Shown here: piece by piece, positions 718 through 24,446 of the stretch | Layout: every line of letters starts with the position of its first letter | How positions within the stretch are numbered: position 1 is the stretch's first letter | DNA from: Candidatus Gottesmanbacteria bacterium RIFCSPLOWO2_01_FULL_42_22 | Lineage (GTDB): Bacteria > Patescibacteriota > Microgenomatia > 2-02-FULL-39-11 | NCBI GenBank assembly: GCA_001779315.1 | Contig: MFJU01000002.1 | Span: 1-34,889 of the forward strand | Length of the DNA stretch: 34,889 nucleotides | Direction: 5' to 3' | Notes under the pieces: model-generated | Databases searched by the model: none | What the model was told of the DNA's origin: nothing | Seen by the model: the letters and a program-made list of their open reading frames with translations, nothing else | Translations under genes and position numbers: made by a program

Positions 718-778
718 GGAGGCGCGTGGGGGAATCGGACCCCCGCATAGCTGTATTTGTCCCGCACTTTGCTTTATG

Positions 779-850
779 AGGCGCAAGGGGGAATCGAACC
801 CCCGCATAACTGTTTTGCAGACAGCCGCGTTTCCACTTCGCCATTGCGCC
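779..850 (-). tRNA. tRNA-Cys(GCA)
   Basis: A complete 72-nt cloverleaf on the minus strand. The acceptor GGCGCAA pairs with TTGCGCC, the D-arm is GCG/CGC with GG in the loop, the anticodon stem GCTGT/ACAGT encloses CTGCAAA (anticodon GCA), and the T-stem GGGGG/CCCCC encloses TTCGATT. The discriminator is U73, a known identity element for cysteinyl-tRNA synthetase. CCA is not encoded. It sits inside the split tRNA-like structure and shares its upstream promoter. Confidence 0.95.
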
Positions 851-883
851 GAATTTAGCAAATGCGGGATCCCGTGCATCTAA

Positions 884-960
884 GCCCCGATTTCATCGGG
901 GCAAGATGTTTCGGGACACACAGCCACGTTTCCACGGAGTTTATCCCGATCATCATCGGG
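884..960. repeat. Two related CCCCGAT...ATCGGGG palindromes
   Basis: GCCCCGAT-TTC-ATCGGGGC (884-902) is a perfect 8-bp hairpin. CCCGAT-CATC-ATCGGG (945-960) is a second, related hairpin 42 nt away. They lie in the two insertions of the split tRNA-like RNA. A third relative with a 2-nt loop occurs inside a coding region at 5955-5970. They may be small mobile palindromes, but three copies are too few to prove it. Confidence 0.45.
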
Positions 961-985
961 GCCCAACGCGCCGTGAACGTCTCTG

Positions 986-1014
986 ATTTTACCAAAGTTA
1001 GCGGTGATTGTTAA
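986..1014 (-). promoter_or_regulatory. Promoter of the tRNA-Cys unit
   Basis: Minus-strand TTAACA (1009-1014), a 17-nt spacer and TAAAAT (986-991). The expected start, about 7 nt after the -10, is roughly 7 nt before the acceptor strand of the split tRNA-like RNA at 972. The -35 box overlaps the stop codon of the ClpC-like gene. Confidence 0.55.
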
Positions 1015-3449
1015 CTGGCAGTAAATTTGCCGGGGTCGATGGTGATTTCATTGCCTTCCTTAAATGATCCGTCCAGAAGTTTTTTGGCCAGGTAATCCTC
1101 GAGAGAGGTTTCTATCGTCCTTCGCATGGCGCGGGCTCCGAATTCCCGGCTGGCTCCGGAGGAAGCCAGGAAATTGATTAGTTCATCGGTCGGTCTGACC
1201 CTGATTTCCTTATGAGCCAGCCTGCGGTTGAGGGAATTCAGCTGCAGTTTGGCGATTTCCCGTAAATTCCCCTGTGATAAAGGCGTAAAAACAATGGCGG
1301 CATCAAAGCGGTTAATAAATTCCGGAGAAAAAATCTTCTCACGCAGAATAAATTCGACTACCTTATCCTGCAGATTGTTTTGGGTATATTGCCCGCTTTG
1401 CAGGGTTTCGCGGATAAATTCCGAGCCGGCATTGGAAGTGGCGATAATGATAGTTTGGCGGCAGTCAATTTTTTTACCGGAAGCGTCATGAATATAGCCT
1501 TCGTCCAAAAGGGTCAGAAAGAGGTGCTGGATCTCTTTGGGTGCTTTTTCGATTTCATCAAAAAGAATTAAGGTAAACGGATTTTCCGTCAGTTTCTCCG
1601 TCAGTTCCCCGGCTTGCTGGGAAGCATTATGCCCTAATAGCCTTGAGAGACCTTCTTCGCCCTGGTATTGGCTCATATCAAATCTTTGCATCCTGTCCTG
1701 GCCCCCGAAATAACTTTCAGCTAAGGCTTTGGCTGTTTCCGTCTTGCCTACACCGGTCGGTCCCAAAAAAAGGAAACTGCCGATGGGTTTGCTTTCGGAG
1801 GAAACATTCAAACGCGCTCTTCGCAAAGCTCCGCTTAATTGCCGTATGGCCGAATGCTGGTTGATGATGCGCAAATGGAGAATATCCTCCAAATTAGTCA
1901 GTTTCTCTTTTTCACCGCTTTTAAAATTGCCCAAAGGTATTTTCAGTTTTTGGGACAGGTAACTGTCAATATCTTCGGCTGTTATAAAATTCTTTTTTTC
2001 AGAGGCGATAATGGAATTTTCCATAAGTTCAATGGCTTTGGCCGGAAAAGGGCTTGAAGTCAGGTAGCGTTCGGCATTTTCGACGGTTTTTTTTATGGCG
2101 GAATATGATACCAGGGTATGGTGTTTTTCCTCCAGCATGGGAACGATAGAAATTTCCAGTTCCCTGATGACGGTTTTTATGTCAGGCGGGTAAATAAATA
2201 TCTCCTCAAACATGCCCGTTAAGGTGGCGTTTTTTTCCAGGAAGCGGTGGTAGTCTTCCGTTGTGGTCAAGCCGATAAAACCCATCCTCCCGCGTGCAAA
2301 TTTTTCAAAGACGTCAGTTAAATTCAGTCTGCCGCTGCCTTCGGAGATATATTTGTCGATTTCGTCAATAAAGAGGATGATATTGCCGGCGGATTGCGCC
2401 TCAAGGTAAATATCGGAAAAAATGGCTTTAATATCCGCCAGATTTTTTTCTCCGGAACAAAGGGTATGCATGTCGATTTTGATAATCCGCTTTAAAAACA
2501 GCCGGCGGTCGCACTTTCCGGAGGAAAGGTTGCGGGCTAAAGTCTCGATAAGCATATGCCTGGCTATGCCGGGTTCGCCGATAATAAGTACATTATTATT
2601 GCTGCTTTTTAAAAGGGCCCTCTCCAATTTTTTTATTTCTGCCTCCCTGCCTAAAAGAAAAGGAAAAGGGGAAGGTTCGGCTGTCAGGTCACGCGAATAT
2701 TTATCCAGTTCGACGGTATAGCCGTATGACCAGTCCATGCCGACTCCGGAAAGAGTTCTGATCCTGTCAAGGTCCTCCATGAGCGGTTTTTCGGCAAGTT
2801 TTTCGAGTTGTTTGTACCAGTTGAGGCATTCGAAAAAATCTTCACGGCTCACTTTTTTCAGCGAAAAAGCCTGGATTAGGGATAATTCACTGTAAATTAA
2901 ATTATAAAGATCTTCATCAGGCAGATTTCCGGCGACTTCATCTTCATTTTGAGGAATCTGTCCGCTAATGGAAAGAGGATTCAGTCCCGATCTGCCCAGA
3001 GTAAAGCGGCCGATTTTTGACAGACAGAATGTCTTAAGTAAGGCAAATGCGGTAGCGGTTTTTTTGAATCCCGCGGTTTCTTCGGCAAATTTTTTATGAC
3101 GGATCAGATACAGGGGATAGGTCAGAAAGGGTACAAGTGCCCAGATTAAAACAGGCGGTATATAGATTAAGGGTAAAACCAGCATCATTGTAAGCCCGAA
3201 AATTATTACTGACAGGCGCAAAAATAACCCGATTATTCTTGATGTCAGATTAAAAGAGGCGACGGAAAAAACTTCAGCCAGTTGAAATCCCCGGCCGCGC
3301 CTGGTTTGGATCCGCTTCCAGGGAGACAGTAAATGGGAAAGATGGTGGGGAATGGCGCAGAAATAAAAAGCAAAATAGACGGAATTGACAACATAGGTTA
3401 ACAGCCGGGATAGTATTATACCGTAATGCCAATACAGGTAATCATCCAT
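1011..3449 (-). CDS. Membrane-anchored ClpC/ClpB-like double AAA+ ATPase
   Basis: An 812-aa Clp/Hsp100-type protein. The open frame extends 44 codons further upstream, but that part overlaps the preceding gene, whereas ATG 3449 lies 4 nt after its stop. In place of the usual N-terminal ClpN repeats there are about three hydrophobic helices (near residues 10-32, 72-94 and 96-116), so the ATPase should be membrane-tethered. D1 has a degenerate Walker A (GEPGIARH, 291-298, with the Lys-Thr pair lost) but an intact Walker B (LFIDEID). The Arg-finger site, normally E-R-R-F, reads TGMF. D2 is canonical: GPTGVGKT (563-570), LILFDEIE, an Arg finger in FINRFD and sensor 2 GARAMRR. The D2 loop lacks the [LIV]-G-[FL] tripeptide that docks ClpP. 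Probably an unfoldase or remodeller working without ClpP. It ends the surface-protein operon. Confidence 0.9.
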   Translation of the reverse strand: MDDYLYWHYGIILSRLLTYVVNSVYFAFYFCAIPHHLSHLLSPWKRIQTRRGRGFQLAEVFSVASFNLTSRIIGLFLRLSVIIFGLTMMLVLPLIYIPPVLIWALVPFLTYPLYLIRHKKFAEETAGFKKTATAFALLKTFCLSKIGRFTLGRSGLNPLSISGQIPQNEDEVAGNLPDEDLYNLIYSELSLIQAFSLKKVSREDFFECLNWYKQLEKLAEKPLMEDLDRIRTLSGVGMDWSYGYTVELDKYSRDLTAEPSPFPFLLGREAEIKKLERALLKSSNNNVLIIGEPGIARHMLIETLARNLSSGKCDRRLFLKRIIKIDMHTLCSGEKNLADIKAIFSDIYLEAQSAGNIILFIDEIDKYISEGSGRLNLTDVFEKFARGRMGFIGLTTTEDYHRFLEKNATLTGMFEEIFIYPPDIKTVIRELEISIVPMLEEKHHTLVSYSAIKKTVENAERYLTSSPFPAKAIELMENSIIASEKKNFITAEDIDSYLSQKLKIPLGNFKSGEKEKLTNLEDILHLRIINQHSAIRQLSGALRRARLNVSSESKPIGSFLFLGPTGVGKTETAKALAESYFGGQDRMQRFDMSQYQGEEGLSRLLGHNASQQAGELTEKLTENPFTLILFDEIEKAPKEIQHLFLTLLDEGYIHDASGKKIDCRQTIIIATSNAGSEFIRETLQSGQYTQNNLQDKVVEFILREKIFSPEFINRFDAAIVFTPLSQGNLREIAKLQLNSLNRRLAHKEIRVRPTDELINFLASSGASREFGARAMRRTIETSLEDYLAKKLLDGSFKEGNEITIDPGKFTAS

Positions 3450-3453
3450 AAAA

Positions 3454-4389
3454 TCATTCAAAATTGCAGTTTTCAATTTTCGGATTGCAGATGACTTTTT
3501 GGGCCCCCGGCACCCTGACGAGATTGGAAACGTAATTAATGATATCACCGATGCCGATAAACTTTTTAAAGAAATTTTCACTGATTTTAAGAAATGAATT
3601 GTTAGCGGAGGAGCCGTGGGCTAACACACAGGCTAAATTGAAAGCAGGCTTTCCGAAAACCGTTTTATTCGGGTACTCACAGCCGATTGTTTGGATAAAG
3701 CCGGGATTGGCCGCTAAGCACTTGTTTTGGCAGAAACGGTAAGTACCGTCGTCATTTGAGCGGCATTCCTCGCCATTGGTCATTATAAAGCAGTGGGTAT
3801 AGCCTGCCGGTCCGGTAAAAATACCCCGTTCGCACAGATCCCGGCAGCCGCCCGGTCCGTCCAGAGACAAATTACCGCATAGTCCCTGGCCGCCGCCTGA
3901 ATTGCACCAGCAGGAAGGGACTCCGGCTGTATAAAGGATGCCGCAGCCCCTGGGATTGAAGCTGCTGGTTTCGGTGGCCGGAGGCGTCGGCGTCCTGGTC
4001 GCCGGGCCGATCGGCTGGGTGGGAAAGGTGCACAAATAGTCGGGTGGTACATTGCAGATACTATTTTTCAAAGCATTGCAGTCGGCTTTAGCCTGCGGTC
4101 CCAAGCCGCCGTTACAGAAATGATTGATGATTTCTGTCTCGGTACAGCGGTTATGTTTATTGAGTTGGTATAGCCTCTTTAATTCAATCCGGTAACTCAT
4201 TATGCAGGCTGCGCATTTTGCCGGAAAATTTGGCTGCTGGAAAGCCAGGACGCATTTATTGCCATAACCGGTCGGCAGCGGCGGATAGACGGGATGAGTC
4301 TGGGCAAAAGTCAGCGACGATGACCAACGGAAAAAAAGGATCGCCGTAACAGAATAAATAAAGAATTTCCTGACTGATAATGCCGTCAT
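3454..4389 (-). CDS. Secreted Cys-rich protein with C-terminal VPGxQK-Cys motif
   Basis: 311 aa, no recognised family. The N-terminus has a basic residue pair, a hydrophobic core and a T-F-A|Q cleavage site near residue 29, a plausible Sec signal peptide. The mature chain is rich in Cys, Gly and Pro, with a Thr/Pro stretch near residues 125-145, and probably has several disulfides. The last 25 residues contain VPGAQK-x2-CNP-x5-C-x-F, matching the ends of the two larger upstream proteins, so all three share a C-terminal module. The gene starts 5 nt after the upstream stop and is followed 4 nt later by the ClpC-like start, so it is co-transcribed. No clear SD precedes the ATG, and translational coupling is likely. 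Role inferred: an extracytoplasmic or surface component. Confidence 0.8.
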   Translation of the reverse strand: MTALSVRKFFIYSVTAILFFRWSSSLTFAQTHPVYPPLPTGYGNKCVLAFQQPNFPAKCAACIMSYRIELKRLYQLNKHNRCTETEIINHFCNGGLGPQAKADCNALKNSICNVPPDYLCTFPTQPIGPATRTPTPPATETSSFNPRGCGILYTAGVPSCWCNSGGGQGLCGNLSLDGPGGCRDLCERGIFTGPAGYTHCFIMTNGEECRSNDDGTYRFCQNKCLAANPGFIQTIGCEYPNKTVFGKPAFNLACVLAHGSSANNSFLKISENFFKKFIGIGDIINYVSNLVRVPGAQKVICNPKIENCNFE

Positions 4390-4394
4390 CTTGA

Positions 4395-6173
4395 TTATGG
4401 AATAAACCGGCAGCCGTCGGGGACCAGAGGATCACAAATCGCTTTTTGCAGACCGGGCACCCGCGGCAGCTGGTCGATAAACTGGCTCATTTCAATAGGC
4501 CCTATTTGTCCGGCCCGCCATTTATTGATGAAATCCTGGAAGGCCACGTTGGATGATAAATAGGTCGATGAACCGGCCGGCGGAGGCAGGAACTTCACGG
4601 TAAAATCAACAATCCCGGGAGGAGTCAACCGGCAGGCAGGGGATTGGCAGGATCCCATGTATTCCACATTTTCCAGCACTATGCCCCCGACACCGTAAGC
4701 CAAAACATAGACGTCATATTTGCGGTCAGGGAAGAGGTTATTAAACTGGTAATTGAAAGGCTGGCCGGATTGAATTGTATTTTTAGGGATTTCGATATTA
4801 CGCAGAAACTTTTCCCTGACGTCATTTAACCAGATAAAGACTTTGTTAAACTGGTTTTTACTGATAAAATCCAAAGTCACCTGACCGCTGATTGTAGCTA
4901 CCGGAGGAATAGCGAATAAACAGTCGTACAAAGTATCATAAGTATTTGCCGGTGAATAAGGTACGGTCACCGCTGTACAAGCCTGGTTGTCAAACTGCCA
5001 GTAAGAGGATATTAAGCGGTTGACCGGATTGCCGGCTACCCGGAAACATTTACCGGTACCGTTATCAGAACATTGGCCTTGGGGTGTGAAATCCTTGACT
5101 GAATAGGATTTGTCAGCAGGATTGGTATTAGTACAGTCAGTACCGGTGTAATAAACAATATAATTATTATCGTTACAGATCTGCCCGTCGGGAGAATGCC
5201 AGGCTGGCGGAGGAATGGTAGGAGTTGGACCTGCGGCTGGAGTGGTTGGTGTGGGGACATTCCCTGCCTGTAGGGTAAAAGTTGTGCCACATTGAGCTTC
5301 CGGGCGGGAGAAACCAGAATCGCTCAAAGTAAAGTAACCGCCGGTACTAATGTTGATTGGATATTGATAATTCCAATTTTCGTCAGGCCGGTTGAGGTCA
5401 TTGTAATTGACCGTAAAGGTGTAGCTATTATTAGTGGAGGGATTAGGATTAGGAACAGTGATTATGTAATGCTGGCCGTTATAATAAATCGGTTTGGCAT
5501 TGCTTACTGGTGGAGGGGGGTAGAGATTATCCTCGTTATAAAAACCTAAAGTAAAAGAAGTTATTGTCGTACCGGCTGGAGGAGTGCCGTTTATTGTTAT
5601 CAGTAATGGTTGGGTGGGGGTGAGGATATTTCCTGAAATAGAAGCACTGCTACAGACAGCCGGCCGGTATAATTCGCTTTGGACAGTACAATTGGGGTTG
5701 ATTGGAGATAGCGGACCACTGCCGTTTTGGACATAAGCTACTATTTGTATCAATTGCAGACTTGACCCATTGATGGGATAAATACCATAGTCTCTCAGAG
5801 AAAATAGTTCTGATCCGGCGAGTAATGTCCTGCTGCCTGTTGTCCGCGGAGTGGTATTATTATCTTTAAACATCAGAGGATAGGTGCCCACGGGACAATC
5901 GGCAGAGGGAGTATTGATATCTCCGCCCGATTTCACGCAGACTTTTTTATAGCCCCCCGATCCATCGGGGTTACCCATATTCCTGATTTCAAAATAGAAA
6001 CCATCGGCTGTTGAGCTGGATGTGGCATCAAATCTGATTGTTTCATTAGCTTTAACCAAAGTTTTATCGACTGTTGCCACTGTGCAGGTTTGGGCAAGAG
6101 CAAGAGAAGGAGATAGCAGTTTTATCGCAGATAACAATCCCAGGGAAAATAAAAGAACGCTAAATTTTATCAT
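4395..6173 (-). CDS. Secreted surface protein, shorter paralogue of the upstream giant protein
   Basis: 592 aa. The signal peptide has hydrophobic core 4-26 and A-L-A|Q cleavage after residue 27. The chain aligns by eye with residues from about 390 to the end of the 979-aa neighbour. Shared blocks include FEIRNMGN, GGYK, CPxGTYPL, RPAVC, PPAGTT, GGYF or NGYF, SRPEA, APDGQ or SPDGQ, and the C-terminal VPGLQK-x2-CDP. The N-terminal half looks like beta-rich Ig-type domains, and a Pro/Thr linker near residue 310 leads to a Cys-containing region and a further beta domain. ATG overlaps the upstream stop by 4 nt (ATGA), so translation is coupled. A CCCCGAT-CC-ATCGGGG palindrome lies in the coding sequence at 5955-5970 and is absent at the matching place in the paralogue. 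Function unknown. Likely cell-surface. Confidence 0.8.
   Translation of the reverse strand: MIKFSVLLFSLGLLSAIKLLSPSLALAQTCTVATVDKTLVKANETIRFDATSSSTADGFYFEIRNMGNPDGSGGYKKVCVKSGGDINTPSADCPVGTYPLMFKDNNTTPRTTGSRTLLAGSELFSLRDYGIYPINGSSLQLIQIVAYVQNGSGPLSPINPNCTVQSELYRPAVCSSASISGNILTPTQPLLITINGTPPAGTTITSFTLGFYNEDNLYPPPPVSNAKPIYYNGQHYIITVPNPNPSTNNSYTFTVNYNDLNRPDENWNYQYPINISTGGYFTLSDSGFSRPEAQCGTTFTLQAGNVPTPTTPAAGPTPTIPPPAWHSPDGQICNDNNYIVYYTGTDCTNTNPADKSYSVKDFTPQGQCSDNGTGKCFRVAGNPVNRLISSYWQFDNQACTAVTVPYSPANTYDTLYDCLFAIPPVATISGQVTLDFISKNQFNKVFIWLNDVREKFLRNIEIPKNTIQSGQPFNYQFNNLFPDRKYDVYVLAYGVGGIVLENVEYMGSCQSPACRLTPPGIVDFTVKFLPPPAGSSTYLSSNVAFQDFINKWRAGQIGPIEMSQFIDQLPRVPGLQKAICDPLVPDGCRFIP
5955..5970. repeat. 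CCCCGAT-N2-ATCGGGG palindrome inside a CDS
   Basis: A 7-bp perfect inverted repeat with a 2-nt centre, related to the hairpins at 884-902 and 945-960. It encodes part of the NPDGSGG stretch of the 592-aa surface protein. The paralogue encodes nearly the same residues without the palindrome. Confidence 0.35.
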
Positions 6174-9109
6174 GGATTAAACTGGCAGCCGCCCGGAACT
6201 TTCGGATCGCAGGTATTTTTCTGCAGTCCCGGTACTTGTGTCAGGCGCCTGATAAAACGGGAAATATCCAGAGGGCTCACCTGGTTGTTAATCCATTTAT
6301 TGACCATCGTTTCAAAGAGAAAGTTCAATTCCTGGGCTGAGGCTCCCTTCAAAGAATCTAGAAATCTTAATTCAAATGTCAGTAGTTCATCATCGGGTCT
6401 CTTTTCGCAGGCGACACTTTCGCATGAACCCTGGTTGTATATACCCTGGTTGTCAATCGGTTGGTTTTCCTCATCATAAGCAGTGACGTAAACTTTATAA
6501 GTTATATCGTTAAACAGCGGAGTGAAGGTATGTTCGAAAGTTCCTCCGTTTTGGAAACCCTCGGTTTTATCGAAGAAAGTCAGGAAATTATCAGGTTCAG
6601 GGGAGGTATCCTGCACGTAAATCCTCAGGAATTTAAAAGGTCTATCCTCTTCCCAACTGACTTTGACCTTTACCCGGATATTGCCTTTCGGTGCTTCTCT
6701 ATAAGAACAATTCAGCAGCTGGTCATAGACAGTTCCCGGCGGCAGATTTCCCGGTTCAATCATATCGCAATTGTCGGGAACATCAGACCTGGATTGGAAT
6801 TTAGCCTCCTCGCCCGGATCAATGATCACTCCTCCGGCTTTATAGCAGGGTTTTCCGCTAACACATTTATTTTCTTCTCCTCCGTTTATCTCCTCACTGT
6901 TAGTGATATAGCCGACCGGAACATTGCACAGGGAATCGCTGTGAAGGGTGATGAAATTAATCCCGTCGCATTTTTGTCCGTCAGGTGCATACCAGTCTTG
7001 GGATGGTGTCGGTGTCAGGTCGGATGGTGTCGGTGTCAAGTCGGATGGAGTGGGGGAAAGCGACCCACTGGGGGAGGCTGTCGGGGACAGGTCTCCTAGT
7101 TCGATTTTAAAGCCTTTAACACAGGCCGCTTCCGGACGGGAAAAACCGCCATCGCTAAGGAAAAAATAGCCATTAGTGGAGACGTTTAGCGGTAACTGAT
7201 TATTCCATAATCTATCTTCATATTGGAAATCAGCCAATTTTAAATTAAAGGTAGCGGAGTTACTGGCTAAGGGGTTATCAGTGATTTTGACATAGTGGTT
7301 AGAGCCGGCAGGGCACACTGGAACTGACCAGGTAGCATCTCCGATACCCTGATCAACGCAAATGGGTTTGGAATTACCGGGACCATACGGATTATCGACA
7401 TTATAAAAAGCCAGCATAAATTTAGAAATGGTAGTTCCTGCTGGTGGATTTCCCTGAATTGCGATGTCTATAGATTTTGATGATGAAATTACATTGCCTG
7501 ATTTGGAAGATCCGGCGCAGACAGCCGGACGGAAATATTCGGTTATGGCTGTGCAGCCGTCGAGGGGAGTCGGTGCGTCAGTCCCGTTGGAAGCTGCACC
7601 GACTATTTGAGCAAGACCGAGATGACCGCCATTGGGTTGCCAAATATTATGATCAAAGGTGAAAAGTTCTTGGGCGGTAGCAATAGTTTTGCTGCCGGTT
7701 TTCCTTTTGCCGGTAGCGGGATCTTTGAAGACTAAGGGATAAGTGCCGGCTGGACAGGCAGCCGAGGGGGTATTGACGTCGCCTCCGGTGGTGACACAGA
7801 CCGGTTTATATCCGCCGGCTCCGTCAGAATTGCCCATATTCCTGATCTCAAAAAAGAAATTCTCATATTCACTATTTGATTCAATTGACAAAGTTACTGA
7901 TTCTGTGCCTTTAACGACCGGTTTATCAACAGTACAGCTTGCTCCACCGCCACCGCCACCGGTATCGCATTTGCAAATCACGTCTGTGCCTTTCGAGCCG
8001 TCTGCTGTACAAGTTGTTGAGCCGTCGCAGATATCACCGACTTTAAGACCCGTACATTTTGTGTTGGAAAAAACTCCGCAGACCTGTCCGTCACCCGGAG
8101 GAGGACTATCGCAAGGTGTTTCGCGGGTACAGTAATCCAGGACCTTGCAATCATCATAACTTCTGCCGCCACAGTTGATTATAGGCCCTAGACACCCTAC
8201 ATAGCAGTTGTCAGGAGGGTTACCGGTGCATGTTCCACTATTGGCAGTTCCTACCCATATGCAGGCTTGACGTTGGGAAGGGGTAGGCGTTGTACCGCTT
8301 TTACAGCAATTAAATTGGTTTCCACGATTTGTTTGGCAATAGTCATTTCCTTCCGGGATGGTTCCCAGATCACATTCAACTCGTGGAGCACAAAAACCTC
8401 CTATATTCCTACAGAAATCAGAAGAATAATCCTTTTTACATTCTTCTCCAGTGGAACATAAATCATTTACACTTATTTTATATCCAGGACAACAGTCTTT
8501 ATTCGGAGGTTTGCATATATCTTTGATGCAAGAAAGCGGGGTCGGGGAGGGAGTGCGGGATGGAACAGGAGTGCGGGATGGAGTAGTTGATATGGGAGGT
8601 GTTATGGTTGGTGTAAGTGTTCTTGTTGGAGTGGGAGTATTAGTAGGGGTTATCCACTCACATTCCTCGGCATCCTGGTATAGGTATCTTGTTTGGGGCG
8701 ACCATAAGATTTTACAGTCAAGTTTATCCGGAAAATAATACTTGTATTCCATAAATTTTGTATCACCTTTTGGGTTGTATACTCTAAAACACTTGTTAGT
8801 AGTAGTACACTTTGTACCATCGGCTGGTACATAATATCCCTTTAAAGTAGTATCATTGCATGGATTGGTAGGTCCTCCCCAATAAGTTGCTACGACTTTG
8901 GTCGCAGTTGTTGATAGGTTTTCATTGCATACTACGCTGCTTTTTTTTCCACGCCAGAATCCTCCTGTGGCGGCTTGTTTTTGCAGGTTTTGGGGTTGTT
9001 GGGCTAATTTTGCGGCGGCGAAGATGCCGACAGCCATCGTGACCAGCAGTATTAATTCAATACCGGCAAAACCCGCCCTCAGGAGGGTAAATTTCAAATA
9101 TTTTTTCAT
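6170..9109 (-). CDS. Giant prepilin-like, Cys-rich surface protein
   Basis: 979 aa. The N-terminus reads as a class III (type IV pilin) signal: a short basic leader, then G13|F14-A-G-I-E18 and a hydrophobic helix to about residue 35, i.e. Gly at -1 and Glu at +5 of the predicted prepilin peptidase site. Pilins are usually 100-200 aa, so this would be a very large pilin-like or minor-pilin adhesin. After the helix come a Cys-containing domain, a long Thr/Pro/Ser linker (about 155-195), a Cys-dense segment with many C-C and C-x-C pairs (about 195-390), a poly-Gly hinge, then the Ig-like and Cys region shared with the 592-aa paralogue, a second SDLTPTP linker (about 685-705) and the VPGLQK-x2-CDP terminus. 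It starts 32 nt after the cohesin-like gene and overlaps the next gene by 4 nt. Function inferred: surface structure or adhesion. Confidence 0.8.
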   Translation of the reverse strand: MKKYLKFTLLRAGFAGIELILLVTMAVGIFAAAKLAQQPQNLQKQAATGGFWRGKKSSVVCNENLSTTATKVVATYWGGPTNPCNDTTLKGYYVPADGTKCTTTNKCFRVYNPKGDTKFMEYKYYFPDKLDCKILWSPQTRYLYQDAEECEWITPTNTPTPTRTLTPTITPPISTTPSRTPVPSRTPSPTPLSCIKDICKPPNKDCCPGYKISVNDLCSTGEECKKDYSSDFCRNIGGFCAPRVECDLGTIPEGNDYCQTNRGNQFNCCKSGTTPTPSQRQACIWVGTANSGTCTGNPPDNCYVGCLGPIINCGGRSYDDCKVLDYCTRETPCDSPPPGDGQVCGVFSNTKCTGLKVGDICDGSTTCTADGSKGTDVICKCDTGGGGGGASCTVDKPVVKGTESVTLSIESNSEYENFFFEIRNMGNSDGAGGYKPVCVTTGGDVNTPSAACPAGTYPLVFKDPATGKRKTGSKTIATAQELFTFDHNIWQPNGGHLGLAQIVGAASNGTDAPTPLDGCTAITEYFRPAVCAGSSKSGNVISSSKSIDIAIQGNPPAGTTISKFMLAFYNVDNPYGPGNSKPICVDQGIGDATWSVPVCPAGSNHYVKITDNPLASNSATFNLKLADFQYEDRLWNNQLPLNVSTNGYFFLSDGGFSRPEAACVKGFKIELGDLSPTASPSGSLSPTPSDLTPTPSDLTPTPSQDWYAPDGQKCDGINFITLHSDSLCNVPVGYITNSEEINGGEENKCVSGKPCYKAGGVIIDPGEEAKFQSRSDVPDNCDMIEPGNLPPGTVYDQLLNCSYREAPKGNIRVKVKVSWEEDRPFKFLRIYVQDTSPEPDNFLTFFDKTEGFQNGGTFEHTFTPLFNDITYKVYVTAYDEENQPIDNQGIYNQGSCESVACEKRPDDELLTFELRFLDSLKGASAQELNFLFETMVNKWINNQVSPLDISRFIRRLTQVPGLQKNTCDPKVPGGCQFNP
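7002..7043. repeat. 21-bp tandem repeat coding SDLTPTP
   Basis: Two adjacent 21-bp units (7002-7022 and 7023-7043) differ at one base and encode two copies of S-D-L-T-P-T-P in the linker of the giant surface protein. A degenerate third unit follows. This is slippage-prone linker DNA and keeps the reading frame. Confidence 0.8.
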
Positions 9110-9141: not shown

Positions 9142-9690
9142 CTAAAGTATATTGATATCCAGCCGACTCGGCCTTTTAGGATCAAGAATATTGATGCCGT
9201 TGGTGGCCACAATCGTTTTTTCCCGGTTAAAGTTGATTTCTGTTTTGCCTTTATTGTTCTGTGCCAGGAAGACGATTTCCGCCACCGTTTCCTTGCCCTT
9301 TGGTAAAACGACTGACTTGCCGTCGAATGTGGCCACGCCTGAGACTTTGACAAAATCAGATCCCGTAATATTGATAGGGTAATTGGCGAAAAACTTGCCG
9401 GTTGAGACCGAAGTGACTTTCAAATATTCCGGATTATAGGTAACGAAGAAATCAGCCGCGGCTACCTCTGTCCTGCCGGAATCCAAAACCAGAGTCACTT
9501 TCATTTCCTCCCCGCTTTTTACTTTGGTATTTTCCGATAAAAGATCCAATTTAGCTTCCTTTTTTATTTCACTATTCTTATTGGCAAATTTCAGGCGGTA
9601 GATAGAGGCTGCCAAGATGCCTATGATGAAACAGAGGACAAGGATAAAAATTTTATTTGATGATTTAGTATGGCTGCGTTTTTGCTCCAT
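9142..9690 (-). CDS. Membrane-anchored cohesin-like domain protein
   Basis: 182 aa. Residues 1-13 are basic, 14-30 form one membrane helix, and residues of about 45-180 look like a cohesin-type beta sandwich. The pattern is a K-SGEEMKVTLVLDSG start, an AADFFVTYNPEYLKV strand pair, a VATF strand and a VAEIVFLAQ strand. Cohesins bind dockerins in cellulosomes, but similar domains occur widely in non-cellulosomal surface proteins. I see no dockerin calcium-loop repeats in the neighbours. It is the first gene of the surface operon. A promoter (TTGACT-17-TACCTT) ends 6 nt before the ATG and there is no SD, so the mRNA may be leaderless. It is divergent from dcd. Confidence 0.75.
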   Translation of the reverse strand: MEQKRSHTKSSNKIFILVLCFIIGILAASIYRLKFANKNSEIKKEAKLDLLSENTKVKSGEEMKVTLVLDSGRTEVAAADFFVTYNPEYLKVTSVSTGKFFANYPINITGSDFVKVSGVATFDGKSVVLPKGKETVAEIVFLAQNNKGKTEINFNREKTIVATNGINILDPKRPSRLDINIL

Positions 9691-23777: not shown

Positions 23778-24446
23778 ATGCCTCGCCGTCTGACTCCTTT
23801 GATTTCTGGCCAGTTTTATCATGTTTTTAATCGCGCTATAGATTATCGAATTACTTTCTCTGAAAAAAGAGAATATGATCATGCTTATAAAACTATAGAT
23901 TACTACAGATTCCATTCTTTACCTGTTAAGTATTCAATATTCCGTCGTTGGCCTCTAAAACGAAAAGAAGAGGTCAGGAAATCTTTAGAAAGAGAGCAAA
24001 ATAATGGTGATATTATTTCATATTGTTTAATGCCGAATCATTTCCATTTATTAATTAAGCAAAATTTTGACAATGGAATATCTAAATTCGTCAGTAATTT
24101 TCAAAATAGTTATACACGATATTTTAACTGTAAACATAACCGCATCGGTTCATTATTTTTAGATCAATTTAAAGCAGTCAGAATAGAGACAGAGGAACAA
24201 TTACTGCATATATCCAGATATATTCATTTAAATCCATATACTTCATATATAGTTAAATCAATTGATGAATTAATTGTTTATTCGTGGTCTTCACTGAAGC
24301 AATATTTAGGATTAGAGGTTGGGATATGTGAAACAAAGGACATTTTATCTTATTTTAAAAAGCCGGATTATTATAAGAAATTCATAATCGACCAGGCAGA
24401 TTATCAACGGAAATTAGATCAGATTAAACATTTAAAATTAGACTGA
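23778..24446 (+). CDS. REP-associated tyrosine transposase (Y1, HUH family)
   Basis: 222 aa. The family nicks and joins single-stranded DNA at REP palindromes. It starts with the hallmark GQFYHVFNRA, has the HUH metal motif in CLMPNHFHLLIK (about residue 85), a catalytic-tyrosine region FQNSYTRYFN (about 110-119), GSLFLDQFKAV and RYIHLNP. All expected motifs are present, so it looks intact. The coding DNA is clearly richer in A and T than its neighbours, a sign of separate origin. Palindromes matching its expected substrate lie on both sides. RAYTs are usually single-copy and vertically kept rather than classical insertion sequences. No target-site duplication is seen. Confidence 0.92.
   Translation: MPRRLTPLISGQFYHVFNRAIDYRITFSEKREYDHAYKTIDYYRFHSLPVKYSIFRRWPLKRKEEVRKSLEREQNNGDIISYCLMPNHFHLLIKQNFDNGISKFVSNFQNSYTRYFNCKHNRIGSLFLDQFKAVRIETEEQLLHISRYIHLNPYTSYIVKSIDELIVYSWSSLKQYLGLEVGICETKDILSYFKKPDYYKKFIIDQADYQRKLDQIKHLKLD

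Follow-up and report, generated by a model that had tools for sequence, protein, structure and literature searches.

In the window analysed here, the whole 34,889-nucleotide stretch of contig MFJU01000002.1 from Candidatus Gottesmanbacteria bacterium RIFCSPLOWO2_01_FULL_42_22 (GCA_001779315.1), an intact cysteine transfer RNA (tRNA) gene lies within an insert that divides a second tRNA-Cys gene, and insert and inner gene together form one copy of a recurrent palindromic element. This nest is probably the product of a mobile element, similar to a REPIN (a hairpin-forming doublet of repetitive extragenic palindromic [REP] sequences) or a miniature inverted-repeat transposable element (MITE), that breaks a resident tRNA gene and supplies its replacement, the inner gene taking over while the outer one decays. 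The arrangement is that of the original prediction: ARAGORN and Rfam (66.4 bits) both recognize the inner tRNA-Cys, the outer halves lie where they had been placed (Table 1), the outer acceptor strands (972-966 and 727-721) pair at seven of seven positions, and the 5-bp anticodon-type stem (GCTGT/ACAGC), the intact T-stem, and the 7-bp helix TGTCCCG/CGGGACA (918-912 with 764-758) running from the outer tRNA into the insert are all present. A promoter-like site had likewise been expected near the outer 5′ end and is found at 1014-986 on the minus strand, but its distance is not the 7 nt proposed, as the −10 element ends 13 nt before the gene. The 260-nt region has a predicted folding energy of −122 kcal/mol versus −93 ± 5.3 kcal/mol for dinucleotide shuffles (z = −5.4; none of 200 as good), which rules out chance folding. 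Of the 42 Rfam tRNA matches in the genome (G000; 1.42 Mb, 93% complete), all of which were typed and one of which is partial, the inner gene is the only tRNA-Cys.

On comparison with a close relative, the outer copy is the resident tRNA-Cys, now broken, and a live intron-containing gene is not supported at this locus. The empty site is provided by a genome of the same genus (G001, locus L008), which has one uninterrupted tRNA-Cys followed by tRNA-Ile in the same order as in the window; its acceptor stem, GGCGCGT/ACGCGCC, is exactly that of the window outer copy. The two acceptor pairs distinguishing the outer from the inner gene, previously taken for compensatory changes, are therefore ancestral and were not made while the gene was split, because the intact G001 gene has the same pairs. 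Relative to G001, the D-arm of the outer copy contains a 25-nt palindrome, G stands in place of C32, an additional T brings the joined anticodon loop to 8 nt, and C replaces T55; ARAGORN calls no tRNA once the insert is removed. The inner tRNA is close to the congener's gene and differs from the outer one mainly in the acceptor and T-stem. The anticodon after joining is not ambiguous, as had been suggested, but GCA, since the element sits between G34 and C35. A repeat similar to the D-arm palindrome (CCCGATGnTnATCGGGATAAACTCC, 936-960, minus strand) occurs in another genus (G014, locus L033, G014:C37) away from any tRNA, and the palindrome is thus a separate mobile repeat.

The element consists of two inverted hairpins around a CGGGATCCCG center: when run on the other strand, the hairpin-1 covariance model finds a second match over hairpin 2, with the tRNA in the loop. 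With the spacer as query, the structure was also met in many related genomes. In hairpin 1, two unpaired A's are conserved within the consensus TCCC-A-GnAnn-A-TCT...AGA-nnTnC-GGGA. The alignment of 25 copies has standard pairs in 93.7% of the pair cells and double changes in 56 cells (shuffles, 18), with a covariation score of 0.331 versus 0.109 for shuffled and at most 0.115 for slid alignments. The ends carry terminal TCCCAG/CTGGGA repeats, and in 41 nests the outermost 14 bases, read inward, are alike at both ends (TCCCAGnAnnATCT), a figure that is slightly optimistic because the right end was picked partly for its similarity to the left. Together with the placement of the unpaired A's on opposite strands, the dyad symmetry suggests that the element is recognized as DNA rather than functioning as RNA. 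An extended −10 motif of the TGnTAnAAT type is present in 14 of the 25 hairpin-1 loops (0.17 expected from shuffling, for a motif picked post hoc) and resembles the sites at 1014-986 in the window and upstream of the group's single tRNA genes; many copies of the element may therefore supply the inner tRNA with a promoter. In the window, hairpin 1 lacks such a motif, and TTTGCTAAATTC stands directly 5′ of the inner gene.

About 55 distinct nests are found in Microgenomatia and relatives, with inner tRNAs of eight amino-acid families (Thr-UGU, 17; Cys, 13; Thr-GGU, 7; Thr-CGU, 7; Trp, 5; Ala, 2; Pro, Glu, Arg, and Val, 1 each); the count may hold a few duplicates between collections and, the nests having been located through the hairpin-1 model, is too low for nests without hairpin 1. 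Outer and inner genes belong to the same isoacceptor wherever this is readable, and bases 34-35 agree in 31 of 31 Thr nests; the match was judged on these two bases, and a comparison of the 12-nt left flank with cognate and noncognate tRNAs is too short to discriminate. The usual insertion site is in the middle of the anticodon loop (CTG/CAAA for Cys, TTTG/TAA for Thr, and CTC/CAAA for Trp, the slash marking the insertion point); in the Pro and Val nests it lies in the D-loop (CAG/TTGG). Copies that carry no tRNA lie in T-loop-like sequence of 3′ fragments adjoining intact Leu, His, Gly, and Val genes or within a split tRNA-Glu beside an intact tRNA-Glu. Taking the element out in silico gives an uninterrupted tRNA with the anticodon of the inner gene in 12 nests (Thr, Cys, Trp, Pro); most other outer genes are damaged or lack one half.

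A gapped hairpin-1 pattern searched in 84,980 GTDB genomes returned 24 stretches, all in Patescibacteria (Levy-, Roizman-, Gottesman-, Davies-, and other Microgenomatia and one WWE3), and, as a test for phage carriage, had no exact match in IMG/VR. Within the class, the hairpin-1 model matches 36 of 374 genomes at an E value of ≤0.01 and 28 at ≤1e-6; beyond it, a phylum-wide sample contained one convincing genome (G433) and a weak match in G392 that is not at a tRNA. Every match of at least 38 bits adjoins or lies in a tRNA or tRNA fragment. The matches away from tRNAs (L097, L137, L138, and L139) score below 36 bits and look like chance hairpins, and a high-copy dispersed repeat was accordingly rejected; an assembly artifact is ruled out by the presence of nests in dozens of independent assemblies.

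From the comparison of nests between genomes, most favor import as the origin of the inner tRNA. An exact empty site is found in Thr genes: the single tRNA-Thr-CGU of G701 is identical to the joined outer gene of its congener G707 (74 of 74 positions), and the inner gene of G707 differs from its own outer gene at about 16 positions. The same resident gene can hold different inner genes, as in G707 and G074 (outer 5′ halves identical at 34 of 34 positions, inner genes 89% identical), and the same inner gene can lie in different residents, as in G710 and G271 (inner 100%, outer 5′ halves 62%) and in the WWE3 nests L076 and G277 (99% and 62%). Within one nest, the 5′ halves of inner and outer genes are typically only about 70% identical. 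Insertions are also layered: a Thr-GGU type that is the inner gene in G701 and G707 is the broken outer gene in G724, where the inner gene is of a third type; L076 and L082 have an extra 3′ half beyond the first outer gene; and in G010 the intact gene is preceded by two broken Cys 5′ halves, one after the other. Partial nests, reduced to right parts in G006 and G013 and to left parts in G010, would be the expected leftovers of recombination between inner and outer halves.

In the explanation that we favor, a nonautonomous palindromic element would enter the loops of tRNA genes without target duplication, mostly the anticodon loop and sometimes the D- or T-loop, moved by an enzyme acting in trans. 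Because the target tRNA is usually single-copy, an insertion would be kept only if it brought a working tRNA of the same isoacceptor or had landed in an already dead fragment, as fits the tRNA-less copies. The inner gene would then be expressed and the host would depend on the element's tRNA, while the outer shell would decay and gather other palindromes; repeated rounds would yield Russian-doll loci, from which recombination between shells would delete pieces. A stronger version is nearly as likely as not, and we advance it tentatively: the element would be a new type of minimal selfish palindrome of ~160 nt with a whole tRNA as cargo, aimed at the loop of a host tRNA gene of the same isoacceptor down to the wobble base. 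Since it would both break the resident gene and replace it, it would be impossible to lose, and its serial takeovers would produce the nested shells and exchange essential tRNA genes across lineages.

Several observations weigh against this explanation. The isoacceptor match extends to the wobble base, which is stricter than a survival filter needs; about a quarter of the outer genes are still perfect and, as such, may yet be spliced, an example of an intact one being that of Levybacteria MFOV01000005 (L068); and copy number is low, with one to six model matches per carrier genome. The inner gene resembles the host's own gene in the Pro nest L055 (where it is identical to the outer), in L118, and in the window, and these three would also fit local copying or gene conversion of the inner gene. 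No mobilizing enzyme was identified, and no RAYT (REP-associated tyrosine transposase) gene was found beside a copy; Y1_Tnp genes are present in 25 of 26 carriers versus 21 of 26 noncarriers. A link to Y1/RAYT transposases may exist, but their presence does not discriminate carriers, and the palindromes around the window's own Y1_Tnp gene are different ones. That gene (23778-24446, plus strand) is a RAYT-like open reading frame (ORF) of 222 amino acids with its own CCACCTCGGGGGTGG-like palindrome once before and twice after it, unrelated in sequence to the TCCCAG element.

The same-isoacceptor rule would also follow if the element entered a tRNA gene and the same replication or repair event copied that tRNA into the hairpin loop, with later divergence or homogenization and no imported cargo; the complete identity of inner and outer genes in L055 and the restriction of differences mainly to acceptor and T-stem in L118 and the window are in keeping with such in situ duplication. 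We nevertheless consider it rather unlikely, since the G707 outer gene has stayed unchanged from its congener's gene while the inner one is off at about 16 positions, the 5′ halves within a nest typically agree so poorly, and the same inner gene is found in different outer genes across families. The original prediction had preferred a live split tRNA whose intron is kept in register by compensatory change. In a more general form, the outer gene would be functional through a bacterial splicing or trans-joining mechanism of a new kind, with the inner tRNA carried within the intron. The 12 nests that give a perfect cloverleaf and anticodon upon removal of the element speak for it, as does the predicted cofolding of outer gene and insert, but it is now very improbable: most outer genes are broken and several lack an entire half, the window outer gene, with its ancestral acceptor pairs, has lost T55 and gained an insertion in the D-arm and an anticodon loop of 8 nt. 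G000 showed no detectable RtcB (PF01139), nor did 20 of 26 carriers, some of them with nearly complete genomes; no Rfam intron family matches, with the Rfam scan of the insert giving only tRNA and no group I or II intron match in the window or, at a relaxed threshold, in 600-1100; and insertion is at 34/35 or 35/36, not 37/38. Loss of the flanking halves in sister genomes had been named as evidence against such an intron, and relatives G010, G006, and G074, each without one or the other half, come close to it.

Plain tandem duplication of a tRNA, followed by unrelated palindrome insertions and involving no specific element, can draw on the tRNA fragments with varied D- and T-loop palindromes that are common in these genomes and on the partial nests of G006 and G010, which look like products of recombination. 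It is scarcely credible, however, given that the same covarying two-hairpin insert, with symmetric ends and at the same loop position, recurs at about 55 loci of eight amino-acid families and that an exact empty site exists; the covariance model, empty-site, and end data already contradict it. The earlier alternative of a duplicate broken by palindromic insertions was close; the prediction overlooked that the insert is a recurrent element and that the arrangement is found throughout the class.

Integrative elements that target tRNA genes restore the gene that they enter. These elements, which use tyrosine recombinases (reviewed for archaea in PMC8371274), resemble the one described here in taking a tRNA gene as integration site and in preserving a functional tRNA. 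They extend over kilobases, however, code for an integrase, and bring along just the portion of the tRNA that they displace, whereas the element encodes no protein and holds a whole tRNA within the insert. Group I introns sit in the anticodon loop of bacterial tRNA genes at 37/38 (PMC4033280) and are likewise inserted without target duplication; unlike them, the insert described here is ~160 nt, mostly tRNA, and has no ribozyme core, lies at 34/35 or 35/36 and also in D- and T-loops, and leaves most host tRNAs broken. With REPIN/REP sequences (RAYT, Y1; PMC3116915) it shares a short nonautonomous DNA with two inverted hairpin repeats, covarying arms, conserved ends, and precise junctions, as well as the Y1_Tnp genes in almost all carriers. 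However, it is of very low copy number, limited to tRNA genes and fragments rather than dispersed between genes, holds a whole tRNA in one hairpin loop, and ends in TCCCAG, whereas REP repeats have a GTAG or CGTC tag at one end (PMC3733652). Prokaryotic tRNA gene fragments that have been mistaken for tRNAs (PMC9897764) are also partial, noncanonical genes beside real ones, but they include no case of a complete tRNA lying within another's loop. REPINs, tRNA-targeting integrative elements, and tRNA group I introns thus each have some features of the element and none the combination; searches of the open-access literature turned up neither an account of one tRNA gene lying within another nor a description of the element. 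We rate the kind of system as new and its mechanism as provisional.

The structure of tRNA genes in bacteria is portrayed as uniform, the one notable departure being self-splicing introns (PMC4033280). If the favored explanation is true, the element would be an extremely small addiction element and a route for tRNA gene turnover between lineages, in which essential and mostly single-copy genes are repeatedly broken and replaced, and also a source of misannotated split or duplicate tRNAs in Patescibacteria. It was suggested in 2011 that REPINs taking up DNA useful to the host would gain an advantage (PMC3116915), and such cargo capture would become directly testable.

Table 1. Features of the tRNA-Cys nest in the window
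Feature	Coordinates	Strand	Evidence or remark
Inner intact tRNA-Cys(GCA), in the loop of hairpin 2	778..850	−	ARAGORN; Rfam RF00005, 66.4 bits
Outer tRNA-Cys 5′ half: acceptor, damaged D-arm, anticodon stem, loop to G34	917..972	−	Alignment to the single tRNA-Cys of same-genus G001
Outer tRNA-Cys 3′ half: from C35, including the T-arm (T55->C) and the acceptor 3′ strand	721..759	−	Alignment to the single tRNA-Cys of G001
25-nt palindrome CCCGATGATGATCGGGATAAACTCC in the D-arm of the outer 5′ half	936..960	−	No counterpart in G001 or the inner tRNA
Complete 157-nt element (TCCC...GGGA), splitting the outer anticodon between G34 and C35	760..916	−	Recurrent ends in 41 nests and empty sites
Hairpin 1 of the element	870..916	−	Covariance model R1, 46.4 bits; family covariation
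Central palindrome CGGGATCCCG, common to both hairpins	865..874	−	Invariant in 25 aligned copies
Hairpin 2 left arm TCCCGCATTTGCT	857..869	−	Encloses the inner tRNA by pairing with 773-760 in the predicted fold
Hairpin 2 right arm AGCAAAGTGCGGGA, right end of the element	760..773	−	Predicted fold; recurrent ends
Promoter-like site TTAACA-17 nt-TAAAAT with TG, upstream of the outer 5′ half	986..1014	−	Consensus scan, 10/12 matches; a consensus match is not proof of function

Elsewhere in the window, three consecutive ORFs (311, 592, and 979 amino acids; 3454-9109, minus strand) have no Pfam match and are flanked by a ClpB/ClpC-like AAA ATPase (1011-3581) and a cohesin-domain protein (9142-9690). 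REP-like palindromes (CCTGCC...GGCAGG and CCTTCG...CTCAGG) occur repeatedly in the D- and T-loops of broken tRNA copies (L005, L014, L129, L162, and others), as if hairpin loops draw hairpin insertions. Single tRNA-Cys genes (L009, L006, L016, and L026) are preceded by a conserved structured leader, GGCG..ACGT...ACGT..CAGCC ACGT...ACGTGGCGC; the palindromes in its loops differ from genome to genome.
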